IMG/VR virus record: IMGVR_UViG_3300025301_000033
Span: 1-39,608 of that record
DNA: 39,608 nt
DNA from: a virus
Strand: one strand, 5' to 3'
Numbering within the stretch: position 1 is the first letter of the stretch; each line of letters opens with the position of its first letter. Below the pieces are notes generated by a model, which was not told where the DNA came from, did no database searches, and was given only the letters and a program-made list of their open reading frames with translations. Made by a program: the position numbers and the translations under genes. Shown in pieces: positions 2,356 through 39,504 of the stretch.

Positions 2356-2559
2356 ATGACTACAGGAAAAATTAAATGGTTTAATCCAGCCAAAGGATAT
2401 GGATTTATTGAAAACGGAACAGGAGGCAAGGATGTCTTTCTGCATGTATCGGCTTTGGAAAAGGCGGGTATTGACACACTAAAAGAAGGAGAAGAGATAG
2501 AATTCGATATAGGGGAGAACAAGGGAAAAGAAAACGCCATTAACATTAAAAAGATGTAG
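2356..2559 (+). CDS. cspA: CspA-family cold-shock protein
   Basis: The 67-residue product is a full-length cold-shock domain, an OB-fold that binds single-stranded RNA and DNA. It opens with TGKIKWFNPAKGYGFI, including RNP1 (KGYGFI, residues 13-18), and has RNP2 VFLHVS (27-32). AAGGAAA lies upstream of the ATG. It is the last gene of the rightward group and converges with the SufE-like gene after 12 bases, with no terminator hairpin visible between them. In phages such proteins probably act as RNA chaperones keeping viral messages unstructured; that role is inferred. Confidence 0.95.
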   Translation: MTTGKIKWFNPAKGYGFIENGTGGKDVFLHVSALEKAGIDTLKEGEEIEFDIGENKGKENAINIKKM

Positions 2560-2571
2560 GTTTTAGGGTGT

Positions 2572-3048
2572 TTAGTCTTTGCGTGATCCGTACGATTGAA
2601 TTACTTTCAGCATCGAATGAACGCCATTTCTCCTACCAGGAGTCAAAAGATTATCAAGGCTCAAACCGTCTAATTCTTTTTCTTCAAAGGATGCTATATC
2701 GCTTCTTGTAGAATTACTGAAAACATCAGCAAGAAGGCATACCATTCCCTTTGATATCAACGCAGCTGAATCGGCCGTAAAATAAATCTTGTCATCATAT
2801 GTAAAATGTGGAACCAGCCATGTCTGTGACTGGCAACCTGGGACCTCAAACTCCGGTAATTTGAACCGCTCCGGCACGATCGCCGACTTCTTCCCGAAGT
2901 CCATCAGCCACGTGTAGCGGTCTATCATCTCATCCATGTCATTGAGCAGGTCTATGTAGGTTTTCAGCTTGCTTTGAATGGTGGATACAGGATCGACATT
3001 GGTAATCTTGCAATCCCCCAGAATCTTCATTACCTCTTCAGTCTTCAT
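2572..3048 (-). CDS. sufE: SufE-like sulfur acceptor protein
   Basis: SufE accepts persulfide sulfur from the cysteine desulfurase SufS and passes it to Fe-S cluster assembly. The 158-residue product shows the family hallmarks: RYTWLMDFGKK (44-54), VPGCQSQTW (69-77) with the catalytic Cys at position 72, ADSAALISKG (92-101), and LTPGRRNG (135-142). About 25 extra N-terminal residues precede the usual domain. All key residues are retained, so it is probably active. The start overlaps the stop of the zf-CHCC gene (TAATG). No SufS is seen in the window, so it would have to tap the host desulfurase or serve the PP-loop protein encoded upstream in the same operon. Confidence 0.88.
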   Translation of the reverse strand: MKTEEVMKILGDCKITNVDPVSTIQSKLKTYIDLLNDMDEMIDRYTWLMDFGKKSAIVPERFKLPEFEVPGCQSQTWLVPHFTYDDKIYFTADSAALISKGMVCLLADVFSNSTRSDIASFEEKELDGLSLDNLLTPGRRNGVHSMLKVIQSYGSRKD

Positions 3049-3338
3049 TACCCACTTCCTTTCAAAATTTTATTTACATAATCGTTAATGGGCTCAAGCT
3101 TGTCCTGCATCTCTTCAGATGGGGTTCTCTCTTCCTTCTGCCTGATGGAATCTTTTAACCCCATATCAAGTAACTCCTTTTCCTCCAGCATTTTGGTATA
3201 AAAATCTTTTGGCTCATATAAAAATTTTGTGTAGCAGTATTCACATACGGCCTTGTTCTCCTTGTCCACTGTGTACCACACAATAGGATGGTCATCGCCG
3301 CATGAAAATGTTTTGGTATGAATTACTTTGGGTTTCAT
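3048..3338 (-). CDS. zf-CHCC zinc-binding protein (NDUFS6-like domain)
   Basis: In this 96-residue product, residues 12-40 carry Cys13, His17-Pro18, Val20-Trp21, Cys32 and Cys35, as in SCGDDHPIVW then VCEYC. This is the signature of the zf-CHCC family, known from alphaproteobacterial proteins and from the mitochondrial complex I subunit NDUFS6. The rest is a charged helical tail specific to this protein. It lies directly upstream of the SufE-like gene with overlapping stop and start, so the two are probably co-translated. A role in Fe-S or zinc handling is suggested by family and neighbour. The family call rests on motif recognition only. Confidence 0.75.
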   Translation of the reverse strand: MKPKVIHTKTFSCGDDHPIVWYTVDKENKAVCEYCYTKFLYEPKDFYTKMLEEKELLDMGLKDSIRQKEERTPSEEMQDKLEPINDYVNKILKGSG

Positions 3339-4166: not shown

Positions 4167-4420
4167 GGTCCTACGTATTTCTCCTTATACTTCTCAGAAA
4201 TCTCCGTAGAGCAATACGGACCGCATAAAAAGTTAATCTTATATTCAAGAGAAGGATACCACGCCTTAGAGAGCGTATACTTCCATTCATTCCCGTCAAA
4301 CCATGTATTGCAGTTGAAGCATTTGAACTCCGGCGCCGTGCCACCTTCAGGACCCGGTCGTACATGTTTTGTATCATAGTCAACACCTTTCTTATACCCC
4401 ACAGAGGCCTTCGCATTCAT
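4163..4420 (-). CDS. Small zinc-finger-like protein
   Basis: The ATG at 4418-4420 is chosen over two earlier in-frame ATGs because GAGGAG sits 7 bases before it. The 85-residue product has FKCFNCNTWF (Cys-x2-Cys) around residues 32-41 and LCGPYC (Cys-x3-Cys) near 70, a likely four-cysteine zinc site. It overlaps the end of the PP-loop gene by 29 bases and hands on to the hyperbasic gene through GTGA. Nucleic-acid binding is possible. No named family recognised. Confidence 0.75.
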   Translation of the reverse strand: MNAKASVGYKKGVDYDTKHVRPGPEGGTAPEFKCFNCNTWFDGNEWKYTLSKAWYPSLEYKINFLCGPYCSTEISEKYKEKYVGP

Positions 4421-5477
4421 CCGCAAACTCCTCATCAAAGGTATTAAACAATTCCTTTTGCTTGGGTGGTTCTAGAAAATTCATGCTTCGAAGTGGAACA
4501 GCTTTCTTGTGCAAAAACAGTTCAGCTGTTGTATTTTTTAATCCATGTCTTATGGCGTCATCAACCTCGCATGCGTCCTCCCAATCCTTGGGGTAGTTCT
4601 TCTGCATGTTCTTCCACTGATCATTGTGGTGATAAGGACACCCTATGCACGAGGACTTGCCTGGCATAGGATGCTTTTTAATGTCACGGTACCACTGTAA
4701 GCAGTCCGCTCTTGACATCTTCATCTCGATCAATGGCCAACGGGATTCCAACCATGGAAGCCTAGCTTTCTTCATTCTCATTGCTTCATCTGTGGATATG
4801 CCAATCCATTGTTCGACGATTGTTCCTTTCTTAACCCGGTGTCGTGGTTTGATACCGAGCAACTCCCTCATCTTTTTCTGGATGGGGATAACTTTATAAT
4901 CATGTGTACATTGCCTGTAGAGCATTCCAACCTTTCCACCTGGACGTGCCGCAAACAGTGGTGGATTTGGAACCCTTCCGGCAAAAGACTTCCATTCCTC
5001 GTTGGATCCTTTCACTGGATTGGCTGCTCTAATGAGGTCTTCTCTTAAATTGCTTCTTTCCACCGTGTAAATGGGGCAAATCGTGATGGCTTTTTTGAGA
5101 TATTCCACGTGCTCATAGACAAAGGATGGTTCCCATCCAGTGTCAGCGAATATCATGCAGTCCGGTTTGTGCTTTGTCAGTCCTTCTTGAGCCATGAGTG
5201 CGAGACAGGAAGACTGTACCCCTGCGCCGAGCGATAATACACGCATTGTGGGCTCTTTTTCTTTTCCTTCCTCGTCTTTGTATACTGGCTCATGCGTTGC
5301 CGCAACCGCTGCCATGTTATTGAGCTTTCTGCGGTCAACCTTGTGAGACATTTCTTCCAAAAGCTTACGCCTTTCATATTCCATCTGCTCCTGGTTTATA
5401 GCGAATCCTGGCTTAGTGGGGCTATTGGTATAGCCTTTTTTCTTCCCTTGTTCCCTATAACCTACTTTTCTATTCAT
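4392..5477 (-). CDS. PP-loop ATP pyrophosphatase, PAPS-reductase-like
   Basis: In this 361-residue protein a disordered basic head (1-75) precedes the PP-loop domain: SLGAGVQSS at 82-90 binds the ATP phosphates, followed by IFADTGWEP (109-117). Cysteines at 190 (CTHDYK), 259, 277 and 280 (CIGC) could hold a cluster or carry sulfur. Related PP-loop enzymes (CysH, DndC, tRNA thiolases) activate a substrate with ATP before sulfur transfer or reduction. Phage members are common and of unknown function. Co-transcription with a SufE-like gene suggests sulfur transfer to a nucleic acid or nucleotide rather than sulfate assimilation. It has its own promoter at 5491-5519 and AGGAAG before the ATG. Confidence 0.85.
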   Translation of the reverse strand: MNRKVGYREQGKKKGYTNSPTKPGFAINQEQMEYERRKLLEEMSHKVDRRKLNNMAAVAATHEPVYKDEEGKEKEPTMRVLSLGAGVQSSCLALMAQEGLTKHKPDCMIFADTGWEPSFVYEHVEYLKKAITICPIYTVERSNLREDLIRAANPVKGSNEEWKSFAGRVPNPPLFAARPGGKVGMLYRQCTHDYKVIPIQKKMRELLGIKPRHRVKKGTIVEQWIGISTDEAMRMKKARLPWLESRWPLIEMKMSRADCLQWYRDIKKHPMPGKSSCIGCPYHHNDQWKNMQKNYPKDWEDACEVDDAIRHGLKNTTAELFLHKKAVPLRSMNFLEPPKQKELFNTFDEEFADECEGLCGV

Positions 5478-12842: not shown

Positions 12843-14282
12843 ATGTACAAATTTAAAACAGAGCCATACGAGCATCAAAAGGATGCACTAAAAAAATGCT
12901 GGAACAAGGAGTCATTTGCAGTGTTCGCAGAAATGGGAACAGGCAAGACCAAGATAGCGTTGGACAACGCTTGCATATTATACAACAAGGGAAAGATTGA
13001 TCGTGTTCTTGTGATAGCTCCCAAGGGAGCCTACATGACATGGGTGGAACAAGAAATTCCAGCACACGTTCCGGATTATATAGAAAAGAAAGTACTCGCC
13101 TGGAAACAGTCCACGAGCCAGAAATACAAAGCGCAATTGAAGGACATAATGGATATTCAGGATTATAAATTAAAAATTATGGTCATGAACGTGGAAGCTT
13201 TTTCCACGAAAAAAGGGACTGACTTTGCCAGATTATTCCTGATTGGTCGTTCAATGATGATCGTGGATGAAAGCACTACCATAAAAAATCCACAGGCAAA
13301 AAGAACCAAATCAATATTGAAATTGGGAAAGGATACCAAATACAGAAGAATACTGACTGGATCCCCAGTTACCCGGTCGCCCATGGATCTCTGGTCACAG
13401 ATGGATTTCCTGAACCCGGAAATACTGGAGCAATCAAGCTATTATGCATTCAGGACTCGCTATGCAATCATGGTCACGTCAAATGCAGCCGGCGGAACGC
13501 ATACATACCAGCGTATCGTCAAGTTTCAGAACCTAAAGCAACTGGGGGAGCTAGTAGCACCCCATTCATACCGCATATTGAAGAAGGACTGTCTTGACTT
13601 ACCAGATAAGGTATATACCAAACGTGAGATAGAATTAAGTGATGAACAAAAAGAGGCGTATGTGGATATGAAAGCTAACGCTATAGCTACCCTTAAAGGG
13701 CAATCCATGACTGCAGTTAACGTCCTTACCCAACTGATAAGGCTTCACCAGATAACGTGCGGTCATATGAAAACAGATGCCGGCCATACCATAGATCTTA
13801 GAAGCAACAGAATAGATGAACTAATGCAGATTTTGGGTGAGACAACCGGAAAGGTGATTATATGGGCAAATTACATACATGACATTGAAAAGATTGAAGC
13901 TAATATAGCCTTAAGCGATTTCGGAGCAGATTCTCTGTGCACTTATTACGGCGCAACACCAGCCGATAAAAGGCAGGAATGCATCCGAAAGTTCCAGGAC
14001 CCAGATTCAAAGGTAAGATTTTTTATTGGTAACACCCAAACTGGCGGATACGGTATTACCCTTACCGCCGCAAGCACGGTGATCTACTATTCAAACAATT
14101 ATGATCTGGAAAAGAGAATACAGTCAGAGGATCGTGCTCACCGCATAGGGCAGAAGAACAAGGTACTGTACATTGATCTAATGTCAAAAGGGACTGTGGA
14201 TGAAAAAATCATACAGTCCCTTCGAAGCAAGGTTAACATCGCCAAAGAAATCAGTGGCGAGGAACTTATTGCTTGGATTTAA
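12843..14282 (+). CDS. SNF2-like SF2 helicase/ATPase
   Basis: In this 479-residue protein, Walker A EMGTGKT lies at 30-36, motif II DEST at 142-145, motif III TGSP at 172-175 and motif VI RAHRIGQ at 431-437, as in SNF2-type SF2 ATPases. It is about the minimal size for two RecA-like lobes. Such phage enzymes occur with AEP primases in marine phages and may remodel protein-DNA complexes or help replication start. It is the only rightward gene in this half, driven by the bidirectional promoter. Its last 17 bases overlap hsp20 tail to tail. Confidence 0.93.
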   Translation: MYKFKTEPYEHQKDALKKCWNKESFAVFAEMGTGKTKIALDNACILYNKGKIDRVLVIAPKGAYMTWVEQEIPAHVPDYIEKKVLAWKQSTSQKYKAQLKDIMDIQDYKLKIMVMNVEAFSTKKGTDFARLFLIGRSMMIVDESTTIKNPQAKRTKSILKLGKDTKYRRILTGSPVTRSPMDLWSQMDFLNPEILEQSSYYAFRTRYAIMVTSNAAGGTHTYQRIVKFQNLKQLGELVAPHSYRILKKDCLDLPDKVYTKREIELSDEQKEAYVDMKANAIATLKGQSMTAVNVLTQLIRLHQITCGHMKTDAGHTIDLRSNRIDELMQILGETTGKVIIWANYIHDIEKIEANIALSDFGADSLCTYYGATPADKRQECIRKFQDPDSKVRFFIGNTQTGGYGITLTAASTVIYYSNNYDLEKRIQSEDRAHRIGQKNKVLYIDLMSKGTVDEKIIQSLRSKVNIAKEISGEELIAWI

Positions 14283-14664
14283 TTTTTATTTGTTTTGGTT
14301 TTTCGGATTCCGGAATTTCCCGTTTATAAGTAACTTTAAGAAGTCCATCCTTTAGCTCCGCTCCATTAATCATAATGTGTTCATGAAGCTGGAATTTTTT
14401 GATAAAACTCCTATCAGAAATTCCTTTATGCCAAAAATCTTCTGAGGTTTTTTCTTCTTTACACCCAGAAACATGTAAAGTTTGCTCTTTTACTTCAACT
14501 TTCAAATCTTTCTCAGCGAACCCTGCAACAGCAAATTCAATGACGCCTAAGTCATCTTTTTCTTTAATGTTGTATGGGGGATAAGTTGAGACTCTTTTGA
14601 AACCGTCAAAAAAGTCGTTGTGGAAACCAAGAAAATGGTTACGTATAATATCTAGCTCGTTCAT
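14266..14664 (-). CDS. hsp20: Hsp20-family small heat shock protein
   Basis: The 132-residue product has an alpha-crystallin domain: YPPYNI at the N-terminal edge (28-33), AVAGF (45-49), and the family mark AELKDGLL (102-109). The C-terminal I-x-I motif IKI (126-128) mediates oligomer assembly. These ATP-independent chaperones hold unfolding proteins. Phage versions, known in cyanophages and other marine phages, may assist virion or host protein folding. AGGAGG lies just before the ATG. It may be transcribed by late read-through and by its own promoter near 14720-14747. Confidence 0.95.
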   Translation of the reverse strand: MNELDIIRNHFLGFHNDFFDGFKRVSTYPPYNIKEKDDLGVIEFAVAGFAEKDLKVEVKEQTLHVSGCKEEKTSEDFWHKGISDRSFIKKFQLHEHIMINGAELKDGLLKVTYKREIPESEKPKQIKIKSKQ

Positions 14665-23016: not shown

Positions 23017-24048
23017 TTAACCTCCTTGCAAGTTCTGATAGCCCTGATATGCAGCGAGTCCTGTGATTCCGGTTCCAACGGCCTGTGCAAGCGGACTGGT
23101 TCCAGGCGATGTTCCCATCGCTGTCGCCATCGCGCTTGAAGGCATGCCTTGATAGATGTCGGAAACGAATCCCAATCGCTGGTATGGCTCATACGTTTGC
23201 TGTAACTGCTGTCTGTACTGTGCATCCAAGAACTGTTGTTGTGCTTGTTGCTGCACGGATCCTGATGCCATCAGTGACGCAATGTCTCCCTGTGCCTGTT
23301 GCTGCTGTTGTCCCCCTAATCCAGCCATTTGAGTTGCTGCCTGACCGTATCTCCCCATTTGTCCTGCAAATTGCTGTTGCGCCTGTTGTTGCGCTTGTCC
23401 ATAATTCTGTGCCAATGACTGTCCCACTGTCTCTGCCTGCTGTCTTCCAAGCTCCGCAGCTTGAACTCCTTGCCTTGCTCCGCCAAACGATCCAACCTGT
23501 CCTGCCTGTGCGGCGGCCTGATTCTGTAATTTTTGGAACTGGCTTTCTATTCCAGCAGTGACGTGCTGTTGGTATGGATTCATATAATCCTGATATCCTA
23601 CTTGGCCTGCCGTCTGCCCCGTTGGGTCATACGCCCCTGTTGCCGCCTGCGCATATTGTGACGCAGTGTTCAAGTAAGGCTGAAATGCTCCTAGTCCTGT
23701 TGTTGCAAGACCGAATGCCTGTGTTTGTTGAGGATTAAATGCTGCAACTTGCTGCTGTGGAATTTGAACTTGTCCTTCTGCCGCTCTTTGCCCCCTAGTT
23801 AGGTCTTCCCATTTAGTTCCTGGTGCATAAGCGCCTCCGGCAGGTCCTTGATATGTATATTTTCCAAAGTCTGGGTCACCAACCTTTGCTCCAGGGGTGG
23901 AAAGTTCCCATGGATTCTGTCCAAAGCGGGCATACTGCTGGGCAGTGCCCATCAACCCCATCTTCGCCGCTTCTATCTGTGGTGCGTCTCTTGTAAACTG
24001 TGTCTGAAATTGTGTGCCACTTGGGCTTTCACCGCCGCCAAAACTCAT
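23017..24048 (-). CDS. Gln/Ala-rich virion protein
   Basis: In this 343-residue protein the central two thirds are dominated by Gln, Ala and Gly (QQQFAGQMGRYGQAATQMAG, GGQQQQQAQG), likely long helices or a flexible rod. Near residue 70 GGAYAPGTKWEDLTRG resembles a segment of the 362-residue protein at 24878-25966. The ATG overlaps the acetyltransferase stop (ATGA), and AGGAGA lies just upstream. Gln/Ala-rich proteins beside large internal proteins are often ejection proteins; this is inference. Confidence 0.87.
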   Translation of the reverse strand: MSFGGGESPSGTQFQTQFTRDAPQIEAAKMGLMGTAQQYARFGQNPWELSTPGAKVGDPDFGKYTYQGPAGGAYAPGTKWEDLTRGQRAAEGQVQIPQQQVAAFNPQQTQAFGLATTGLGAFQPYLNTASQYAQAATGAYDPTGQTAGQVGYQDYMNPYQQHVTAGIESQFQKLQNQAAAQAGQVGSFGGARQGVQAAELGRQQAETVGQSLAQNYGQAQQQAQQQFAGQMGRYGQAATQMAGLGGQQQQQAQGDIASLMASGSVQQQAQQQFLDAQYRQQLQQTYEPYQRLGFVSDIYQGMPSSAMATAMGTSPGTSPLAQAVGTGITGLAAYQGYQNLQGG

Positions 24049-37222: not shown

Positions 37223-37927
37223 TTATCCTCCTATGGATTTTTGTTGTGTTTGCATGCCTGGTATTTTTAGTTCCCCATGCATGTACTCATCTCTTCGGTG
37301 CTTTCCTTGTTGTTCGATTATCAACTCCTGAATGGCACGTTGATATGATTGTTCATATAATTGCAGCATTTCCGCTGGTCCCTTCAAGAATTTGAAGGCT
37401 TCTGCAAGACTTCCGTAAAGCAACGCCGATGGGGCATTGTTCCCCAACCATGAAGTTGTGTTGGAACTGGACAGTCTTGTTGGTAATCTAGTGATTCCTA
37501 TCTCTATATTATATGCTGCATCTGGTGTTGGCGCAACATAAATTGTGTCCTCGTCCCACCAGGACCAATATTTTGGAGTTCCTGTCGATGTACGAACTGG
37601 CCAGTATTCATTCATGAAACTAATGTCTCGTTGTTCTAAGAAATCTCTTGTTGCTGTTCCTGAAGCAGGATAAATATGTACTGTTCTTATTGTAGCTAAT
37701 GATGTTGGAGTTGCACCAATTCCCGATGCGCCAGGAAGAGATAAGAAAGGATTGCTCGACGTTAAGGCTGAATACTGATGAGACTTAAACGCATCAATAT
37801 CAGCTTCCCTTAATATCCTGTTCTCTGTATGTTCTATAAAGTCGTCCGTTATTGTGGATGTAAGCACATCAGTGCTTGTTTCCGTGTAATTTAAAATCTG
37901 CGTTGTTAATTCAGCGTATGTTGTCAT
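37223..37927 (-). CDS. Tail adaptor-like protein
   Basis: In this 234-residue protein the N-terminus (DDFIEHTENRILREADIDAF) and the later PKYWSWWDEDTIYVAPTPDA and LLYGSLAEAFKFLKGPAEML form a pattern recurring in marine phage head-tail or tail tube adaptor-like proteins. The C-terminus is helical and charged. Its ATG overlaps the previous stop (TAATG). Upstream in transcription lies a gp4-like connector, downstream the fibre genes, which fits an adaptor. Identification is by pattern. Confidence 0.88.
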   Translation of the reverse strand: MTTYAELTTQILNYTETSTDVLTSTITDDFIEHTENRILREADIDAFKSHQYSALTSSNPFLSLPGASGIGATPTSLATIRTVHIYPASGTATRDFLEQRDISFMNEYWPVRTSTGTPKYWSWWDEDTIYVAPTPDAAYNIEIGITRLPTRLSSSNTTSWLGNNAPSALLYGSLAEAFKFLKGPAEMLQLYEQSYQRAIQELIIEQQGKHRRDEYMHGELKIPGMQTQQKSIGG

Positions 37928-38421
37928 TATGCACTCAATGTTGCCGGACCAGAAGAGGCATATCCTCCTCCACCACTGCCTGTTGTTCCTGCAGCTGTTG
38001 AAACTGCAAAGGTATAAAAATCATCATCTGTTTTTGTAATGCTATATCCATCAGAATCTTCCAACTCATCTACATCAGCTCCAAATATATGTCCTCTGAC
38101 GTCCCTGAACCTTACAGTATCACTGCTTGACCGTCCATGGCCAGGTTCAAAAACTGATATTGTTGTGCTACTTGCCGTAAACCTAAAGGGGTTTAGAGGA
38201 AGTTTATGTTCCACTTCACTTTCATCCCTATCCGTTCTAGCGTATTGTAGTGCTTCCTTGTCAGCAGAATGCTTACGGGGATGGTCCTGTGCTGTCTTGG
38301 GTTCAAATTCACTTCTATGAACACGCGCACCATTCCATTCCTTTACCATTTCCTTGTAGGGAAATTCCATTCCACTACGGTCAGAGATAGACTTAGCGTA
38401 TTTTCCTTTAGAGTACGCCAT
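37927..38421 (-). CDS. Hypothetical virion-region protein of marine phage type
   Basis: The product has 164 residues. The N-terminal half is basic (YAKSISDRSGMEFPYKEMVK, then EWNGARVHRSEFEPK), a pattern I recall from uncultured marine phages. The second half is Ser/Gly-rich and beta-like. AGGATAA precedes the ATG. A minor head or tail protein is likely; function unknown. Confidence 0.86.
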   Translation of the reverse strand: MAYSKGKYAKSISDRSGMEFPYKEMVKEWNGARVHRSEFEPKTAQDHPRKHSADKEALQYARTDRDESEVEHKLPLNPFRFTASSTTISVFEPGHGRSSSDTVRFRDVRGHIFGADVDELEDSDGYSITKTDDDFYTFAVSTAAGTTGSGGGGYASSGPATLSA

Positions 38422-38426
38422 TTATC

Positions 38427-38660
38427 CTACCACTTAGAATCTTTAGATCCTACCCAATGATACTTACCACCTTTAGTGGCCGCACCCATGCTTTGCACAG
38501 TGCCAGAAACAGTTCCTTTGGACAGTGAAACAGATTTTGCCTTTTCCTTAGCCTTGGCTTCAGGAACAGAATTAGTTCCTCTATCACTCCAGTTTCCCTT
38601 TACTCCGCCTTTGGAACTTCTTCCGGTATTAGTGTCTTTATTCCAGTTTGGATTGCTCAT
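38427..38660 (-). CDS. Small basic, Ser/Gly-rich protein
   Basis: The product has 77 residues, low in hydrophobic residues and probably disordered: MSNPNWNKDTNTGRSSKGGV, then KAKEKAKSVSLSKGTVSGTV. GGAGG, encoded by the last codons of the cysteine-rich gene, serves as its ribosome binding site, and its ATG overlaps that gene's TAA. Function unknown; a small virion protein is possible. Confidence 0.8.
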   Translation of the reverse strand: MSNPNWNKDTNTGRSSKGGVKGNWSDRGTNSVPEAKAKEKAKSVSLSKGTVSGTVQSMGAATKGGKYHWVGSKDSKW

Positions 38661-38746
38661 TATTCCTCCTTTTTACATTCGCAGTCTTGACATTCACAAT
38701 TGTCTCCACAATTGCATTCAGGACCGCATTTTTCACATTTAACCAT
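38660..38746 (-). CDS. 28-residue cysteine-rich, metallothionein-like protein
   Basis: The ATG at 38744-38746 follows AGGAGG at an ideal distance, and the TAA overlaps the next ATG. Eight of 28 residues are cysteine, at positions 4, 7, 11, 13, 17, 19, 22 and 24. The spacing is C-x2-C-x3-C-x-C-x3-C-x-C-x2-C-x-C, with only small or charged residues between and no hydrophobic core. This is the composition of metallothioneins, which wrap Zn, Cu or Cd in thiolate clusters; eight thiols could hold a few ions. A single zinc finger is unlikely because several CxC pairs occur. It lies between a connector gene and small virion genes. Function is inferred from composition. Confidence 0.75.
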   Translation of the reverse strand: MVKCEKCGPECNCGDNCECQDCECKKEE

Positions 38747-38754
38747 ATTACCTC

Positions 38755-39504
38755 CTATGGTATGTAGGCTTGTGCCGGTTCAACCCTGAACGACGTTCGT
38801 TCACGGTCATTTTCAGCAGCGCGTTTAAATTCCTCGTCATACACCGCTTTTAAGTTTGCACTTAGCATTGGTGCCCTCTTTAAGCTTATATAGTAAGCCA
38901 ATCCCGCAGTCAAACACGGAAGAAAATAGAATGGGACATCGGCGTTATTAACGTAATCACCGGCATCCTGTATTCTTCCAATATAGAAATACTTGAAAAT
39001 GTAAGCCTTGTTTGGGCTTGGATATAGGAAAAGGGTCATGTCATATTCCGGTCGACCACTAGAGGAAGATCCTCCAGTTGTAACCGTTCCAGGAATCAGG
39101 GCCCACTGTGTAGGTCTTGCGTCCCCAGTTGATGATTTCTCCTTTCTGGTAAGATTCATGAATTCTTCGCGTGAAATTCTAGCAACAGAAACATCAGTAG
39201 TACTGCTGTCTCCTTCCAGGTTTGCAGTTGCGCCAGTTGTGGTTGTGATTGTCGCGTCCAAGATGTCAACGACCTTTTGGTCAACCCCGTAAAAGTTTGT
39301 TCCAGCTGTCAGTGTCTGCGTGGCATAGGCAACAGTCCATAGATTTAACCCACGGTTTGCCCATTCCGCAAACATAAGGTTTAAGGATCTTTTTGCTGTC
39401 TTTAGATCATAGCCACTGCGCGCCTCCAATTGGCAACGCTCTAGTGCTTCCTCTATAATTTCATCTATTGAGAGGTTAAAGGTTTGAGTGCCTGAATAAG
39501 CCAT
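38755..39504 (-). CDS. Tail accessory/connector protein resembling P22 gp4
   Basis: In this 249-residue protein the N-terminal helices (NLSIDEIIEEALERCQLEAR, KRSLNLMFAEWANRGLNLWT) match the head-completion/tail accessory pattern of P22 gp4 relatives, which bind below the portal ring. The remainder is beta-rich, ending in charged helix DEEFKRAAENDRERTSF. It comes first among complete late genes here, just after a truncated gene, consistent with a position behind portal and capsid genes. Recognition is by pattern, so moderate. Confidence 0.9.
   Translation of the reverse strand: MAYSGTQTFNLSIDEIIEEALERCQLEARSGYDLKTAKRSLNLMFAEWANRGLNLWTVAYATQTLTAGTNFYGVDQKVVDILDATITTTTGATANLEGDSSTTDVSVARISREEFMNLTRKEKSSTGDARPTQWALIPGTVTTGGSSSSGRPEYDMTLFLYPSPNKAYIFKYFYIGRIQDAGDYVNNADVPFYFLPCLTAGLAYYISLKRAPMLSANLKAVYDEEFKRAAENDRERTSFRVEPAQAYIP

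Follow-up and report, generated by a model that had tools for sequence, protein, structure and literature searches.

A conserved metallothionein-like gene in the late operon of uncultured marine phages

The 28-amino-acid cysteine-rich frame near the end of IMG/VR virus record IMGVR_UViG_3300025301_000033 (the window, i.e., the whole stretch of 39,608 nucleotides that was analysed) is a real, conserved gene of uncultured marine phages, which is under selection for its cysteines and has become fixed in a single clade of podovirus-like marine phages. Conservation was taken as the decisive test of whether the frame is real, and a cysteine-rich frame lies directly after the adaptor gene in 74 of the 74 listed loci with a complete interval and an adaptor identity of at least ~64%. 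With a probability of roughly 60%, the product is a late phage-encoded metallothionein-like peptide that serves as a putative metal-thiolate buffer.

The gene (38660-38746, minus strand; 87 bases) encodes MVKCEKCGPECNCGDNCECQDCECKKEE and, as a preliminary description of this DNA had reported, contains eight cysteines in 28 residues (29%), with the spacing CxxC-x3-CxC-x3-CxC-x2-CxC and no phenylalanine, tryptophan or tyrosine. The start context is AGGAGGTAATATG, and the AGGAGG ribosome-binding site given in the same description is indeed found upstream of the start (38756-38751, minus strand) and in nearly all of 73 loci, its first two bases being shared with the adaptor gene's TAG stop (38755-38757). 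The TAATG coupling described earlier also exists, but at the downstream junction, where the TAA stop of the metallothionein-like frame overlaps the ATG of a 77-aa gene (38427-38660, minus strand), and not at the frame's own start. Upstream lies a 249-aa protein of the head-tail adaptor type (38755-39504, minus strand; phrog_12985), identified by sequence comparison as a homologue of the DSL-LC04 'Pam1 adaptor protein' and of HTVC023P gp54; it had been called gp4-like, but is better described as a relative of the Pam1 adaptor than as a P22 gp4. The downstream 77-aa product is a low-complexity protein of unknown function that was detected only in the clade with the metallothionein-like gene and is much less conserved. 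Beyond it are a 164-aa protein (37927-38421, minus strand; phrog_28581), which comes immediately after the adaptor where relatives lack the insert, and a SU10-type adaptor of the head-tail connector module (37223-37927, minus strand; Pfam match to PF24175). No frame with at least eight cysteines and at least 28% cysteine arose in 40 dinucleotide-preserving shuffles of the window. A second window frame of such composition (23156-23332, plus strand) was rejected, as it consists of CC runs and is antisense to a Gln/Ala-rich 343-aa gene (23017-24048), and an alternative frame over the bases of 38660-38746 was set aside because the excess of third-position change fits the cysteine frame instead.

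Relatives were collected through the neighbours rather than the peptide, by searching viral contigs with the 249-aa adaptor and the 164-aa protein; some contigs come up in both searches, and contigs recur under several locus identifiers. The 74 loci comprise 73 scored by script, which represent 45 distinct nucleotide sequences, and one (L050) read by eye, where gene loss was ruled out since the bases contain an intact 29-aa copy. All prevalence figures for the metallothionein-like gene are lower bounds. The frame had been supposed to be widespread but unannotated and to be recoverable from viral contigs beside the adaptor gene, and it was found in that place in every one of these syntenic loci; relatives that lose the frame or its cysteines while keeping the neighbours, which had been named as evidence against the gene, do not occur within the clade. 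Same-slot relatives range from 25 to 38 aa with 7-11 cysteines, all short-form matches that were checked lie in this slot, and the frame is retained even where the 77-aa neighbour drops to about one third identity or below detection. Across the 45 distinct sequences, pooled pN/pS is 0.36, seven cysteine columns are invariant, and the eighth is cysteine in every sequence that has that column. Both TGT and TGC are used at each conserved cysteine column, and since the columns are invariant while their codons switch synonymously, the cysteines are selected as amino acids. The KE of the terminal KKE is codon-fixed (AAG-GAG in 45/45 distinct sequences), and KKE is absent from most relatives in other genomic positions. 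Because AAG-GAG forms part of AAGGAGG, the ribosome-binding site of the 77-aa gene (38665-38671, minus strand, within the KKEE codons), this tail is probably kept for translation of the next gene rather than for the peptide. In five loci (L158, L164, L176, L500 and L521) an additional ~300-400 nt separates the metallothionein-like gene from its 77-aa neighbour, and the adaptor slot thus seems to take up further small genes.

The window peptide has no match in curated profile collections (Pfam, NCBIfam, PHROGs). Searches of the PDB with a family profile returned MT_nc (E 0.12) and the mouse MT-1 beta domain (E 0.52), and a long-form profile gave five matches up to E 10, all of them metallothioneins (E 0.05-1), with the alignment spanning CxC-x3-CxC-x2-CxC; the metallothionein-like cysteine pattern ascribed earlier to this late-operon gene is thus matched in the PDB by metallothioneins only. 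Pfam matches of the relatives comprise five metallothionein families and one EGF domain with weak E-values, and none of the metallothionein entries in Pfam (PF00131, PF02068, PF01439, PF02067, PF12749) or NCBIfam was matched within its cut-off (best Pfam E-values of relatives 0.0017-0.48, none in NCBIfam). Neither Pfam nor NCBIfam gave a match to a bacterial SmtA-type profile at E 1 or below, and the window peptide has no zinc-ribbon or FmdB match in Pfam and differs in spacing from two CxxC knuckles. Membership of metallothioneins by sequence was thus not borne out for any defined family; since the window peptide matches nothing and its relatives match weakly, the product appears to be a metallothionein-like peptide outside any such family. 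The profile matches to known metallothioneins are marginal and could reflect convergence on cysteine spacing. The family has the features of the metallothionein class in both composition (very small peptides, ~25-35% cysteine in CxC/CxxC motifs, essentially no aromatics) and ligands (conserved Cys and His, variable remainder, and a Cys-to-His change at the last ligand). The segment CxC-x3-CxC-x2-CxC of the vertebrate beta domain (mouse MT-1, 1dft; MT-2, 2mrt; MT_nc, 1m0j) is identical in the phage short form, while the phage long form adds an upstream CxC-x5-C, one residue short of the vertebrate spacing. The window peptide is similar in size to this domain and lacks aromatics; unlike vertebrate metallothioneins, the phage peptide begins with CxxC, its long forms contain His, and the family occurs here in phage contigs only. 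Bacterial metallothioneins (SmtA/BmtA/PmtA, Metallothio_Pro) are likewise small and cysteine-rich, but at roughly 55-80 aa they are longer than the peptides of 25-38 aa in the window's slot. His is frequent in bacterial metallothioneins, as a ligand beside Cys (PMC10612145).

Long-form searches also place the domain outside the adaptor slot, giving at least four different late-gene positions in all. The shared core is C..C.H.CHCSNGGSCCGG.C.C..C.[CH], in which the last ligand is either Cys or His; such an exchange is expected of metal ligands and counts for the metal-binding reading. In the terminase slot the domain precedes the small terminase and TerL genes (L492, L494-L496, L513, L517 and others), often with an FmdB-like frame between them. 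This FmdB-like gene lies at 3102-3392 in L492, has similar counterparts in L494, L496, L557, L559, L570, L578 and L580, and is overlapped by the metallothionein-like frame through TAATG; the L492-type gene matches FmdB/Zn_ribbon_8 with E 0.0024, below the cut-off, having apparently lost the usual first CxxC. A portal-capsid slot lies between the portal and major capsid protein genes (L518, L519, L555, L556, L558, L566), a lysis slot lies before the endolysin gene, with neighbours resembling the window's positions 762-2340 (L507, L514, L515, L520, L567), and a further setting has N-terminal extensions (L565, L574, L575, L579). Lysis-slot forms often carry a VDFDPDFSLT.H tail. The acidic tail VDFDPDF[SD]LT.H was seen in L507 (2998-3156), L514 and L515 (both 2998-3195), L520 (181-336) and L567 (5989 onward); an endolysin-like gene (PF18013 in L514) either overlaps these forms or begins shortly downstream. 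Among the matches listed, the TerL of the terminase group is closest to that of SAR11 phage HTVC033P (65%) and the portal-group capsid protein to that of SAR11 phage HTVC115P (76%), with HMO-2011 and Roseobacter phages lower in both lists. The carriers in these other positions are in part HMO-2011-like phages.

On the metal-buffer reading, the peptide would be produced from the late operon, late in infection, and its eight cysteines (up to eleven, plus His, in relatives) would wrap d10 metal ions in a metal-thiolate cluster. The bound metal would most likely be Zn(II), which is favoured by the His residues of the long forms, and the peptide may buffer or sequester it in the cytoplasm of the infected cell during virion assembly and the dismantling of host metalloproteins. 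Late expression, and not a shared neighbour, is what all positions have in common, which favours a stand-alone soluble function. A conserved metallothionein-like gene with relatives in at least four late-gene positions suggests that the carrier phages handle metal ions in infected cells. The wider proposal is more tentative and somewhat less probable than its negation: a phage-specific metallothionein family may move between the late slots of two marine podovirus-like lineages, through which these phages would carry or regulate trace metals (Zn, Cu) in virions, in lysates or in the cells they infect.

The same positions bear on whether the peptide is instead a virion component, packaged or decorating the head-tail connector and bringing Zn or Cu into the particle, where the metal would act as a structural staple or be cargo to be delivered at the next infection. 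All of them fall in late modules or next to such modules (connector, terminase, portal-capsid, lysis), as this would predict; the neighbours, however, vary by slot, with one of the slots belonging to the lysis region, which leaves no constant structural partner, and a conserved interaction surface is missing except for the VDFDPDFSLT.H tail of some lysis-slot forms, so we regard this role as unlikely. Somewhat less likely again is a redox or detoxifying function, with the thiols neutralising reactive oxygen or toxic metal set free as the host dies, or keeping Zn away from host enzymes; metallothioneins have been linked to roles of this kind (PMC10612145), and the late position of the gene would suit such a function. 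Nothing in the data separates it from metal buffering, and no redox or defence genes were recognised among the neighbours. The similarity of CxxC and CxHxCHC to zinc-knuckle ligands raises the idea of a structural knuckle that acts as a regulator by binding to nucleic acid or to a protein of the host (e.g., RNA polymerase), and small regulators are common in phages. Such a regulator is improbable for a peptide with 8-11 cysteines in 28-36 aa, hardly any hydrophobic or aromatic side chains, an overall acidic short form, and a late rather than early position. The TAATG overlap and the downstream ribosome site inside the frame could also indicate a leader whose translation senses cysteine supply and controls the coupled gene, the peptide itself being disposable, but this is highly improbable given that the spacing and non-cysteine residues (H, G, SNGGS) are conserved, that His replaces Cys at a ligand position, and that the domain is found ahead of unrelated genes too, as well as with extensions at its N- or C-terminus.

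The distribution of the metallothionein-like gene among adaptor relatives is sharply divided. It is present in 217/217 listed loci with an adaptor above 50% identity and at least 400 nt downstream, versus 0/66 below 50%; all but one of the 217 have an adaptor above 60% identity and part were found using the peptide itself, the unbiased count being 74/74. In the distant relatives, as in the isolates HTVC023P and DSL-LC04, the adaptor joins the next gene directly. On a tree of 146 distinct adaptors, presence maps to one change (SH-aLRT 100) and the gene is never lost again. The peptide occurs in a short form and a long form, the latter with a CHC-x5-C insertion (extra Cys and His), and form changes ~13 times on the tree, with 5-6 main-form changes forced by well-supported branches; compared with the single change in presence, this makes it seem that the adaptor slot exchanges alleles. 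A 61.7-kb relative that shares most window genes has one such metallothionein-like gene. Phages of the HTVC023P and HMO-2011 types (SAR11, SAR116 and Roseobacter hosts) have homologous polymerase, adaptor, terminase and capsid genes. A tblastn search with three peptides against 50,697 phage records gave no match up to E 10, which is weak evidence of absence because the low-complexity filter was on, and the late regions of isolates were therefore scanned directly. Unlike the carriers, HTVC023P, HTVC027P, 023Pt_psg01, HTVC033P, HTVC104P, HTVC115P, HMO-2011 and DSL-LC04 lack such a frame in the part of each genome that was scanned, which argues that the gene is not needed by such phages in general. 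The 45-aa HTVC115P gp73, in the portal-capsid slot, was rejected as a family member, being a Lys/Gly/Met protein without cysteine. A host origin found no support, with no profile match among 385 genomes from the class to which one Alphaproteobacterial MAG belongs; the same search recovers 10 of 12 viral records as a control. No tRNAs for host assignment were found in the analysis, and the hosts of the carriers are inferred from distant relatives only. DNA patterns of the eight-cysteine spacing, scanned across the whole collection, returned mostly poly-Cys frames resembling antisense CAG/GCA repeats, which were discarded; only the known family was convincing among the matches listed, and the scans are uninformative on absence elsewhere.

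A bacteriophage metallothionein gene was not found in term searches of the open literature (5.4 million papers), in PHROGs, or in the translated search of 50,697 phage records with its low-complexity filter. The sole phage paper in that literature found to contain the word metallothionein lists a bacterial gene in a table, and neither metallothionein nor cysteine appears in the main text of a study on 80 HTVC023P-type genomes and their 41 new auxiliary genes (PMC9599517). Should the peptides bind metal, the handling of metals would be one more host function taken over by marine phages, and the lysis they cause could alter the form in which scarce Zn and Cu are returned to sea water. The system offers a compact test case, with a single gene of 87 bases, naturally occurring variants of short and long form, and relatives that lack it. 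Elsewhere in the window, a cold-shock protein (2356-2559, plus strand; PF00313, E 7.8e-24) and an Hsp20 small heat-shock protein (14266-14664, minus strand; PF00011, E 5.7e-17) are encoded, the latter with 85% identity in the 61.7-kb relative. A 361-aa protein with a weak PAPS-reductase-like match (4392-5477, minus strand) is also ~85% identical in that relative, versus 65% for the DNA polymerase.
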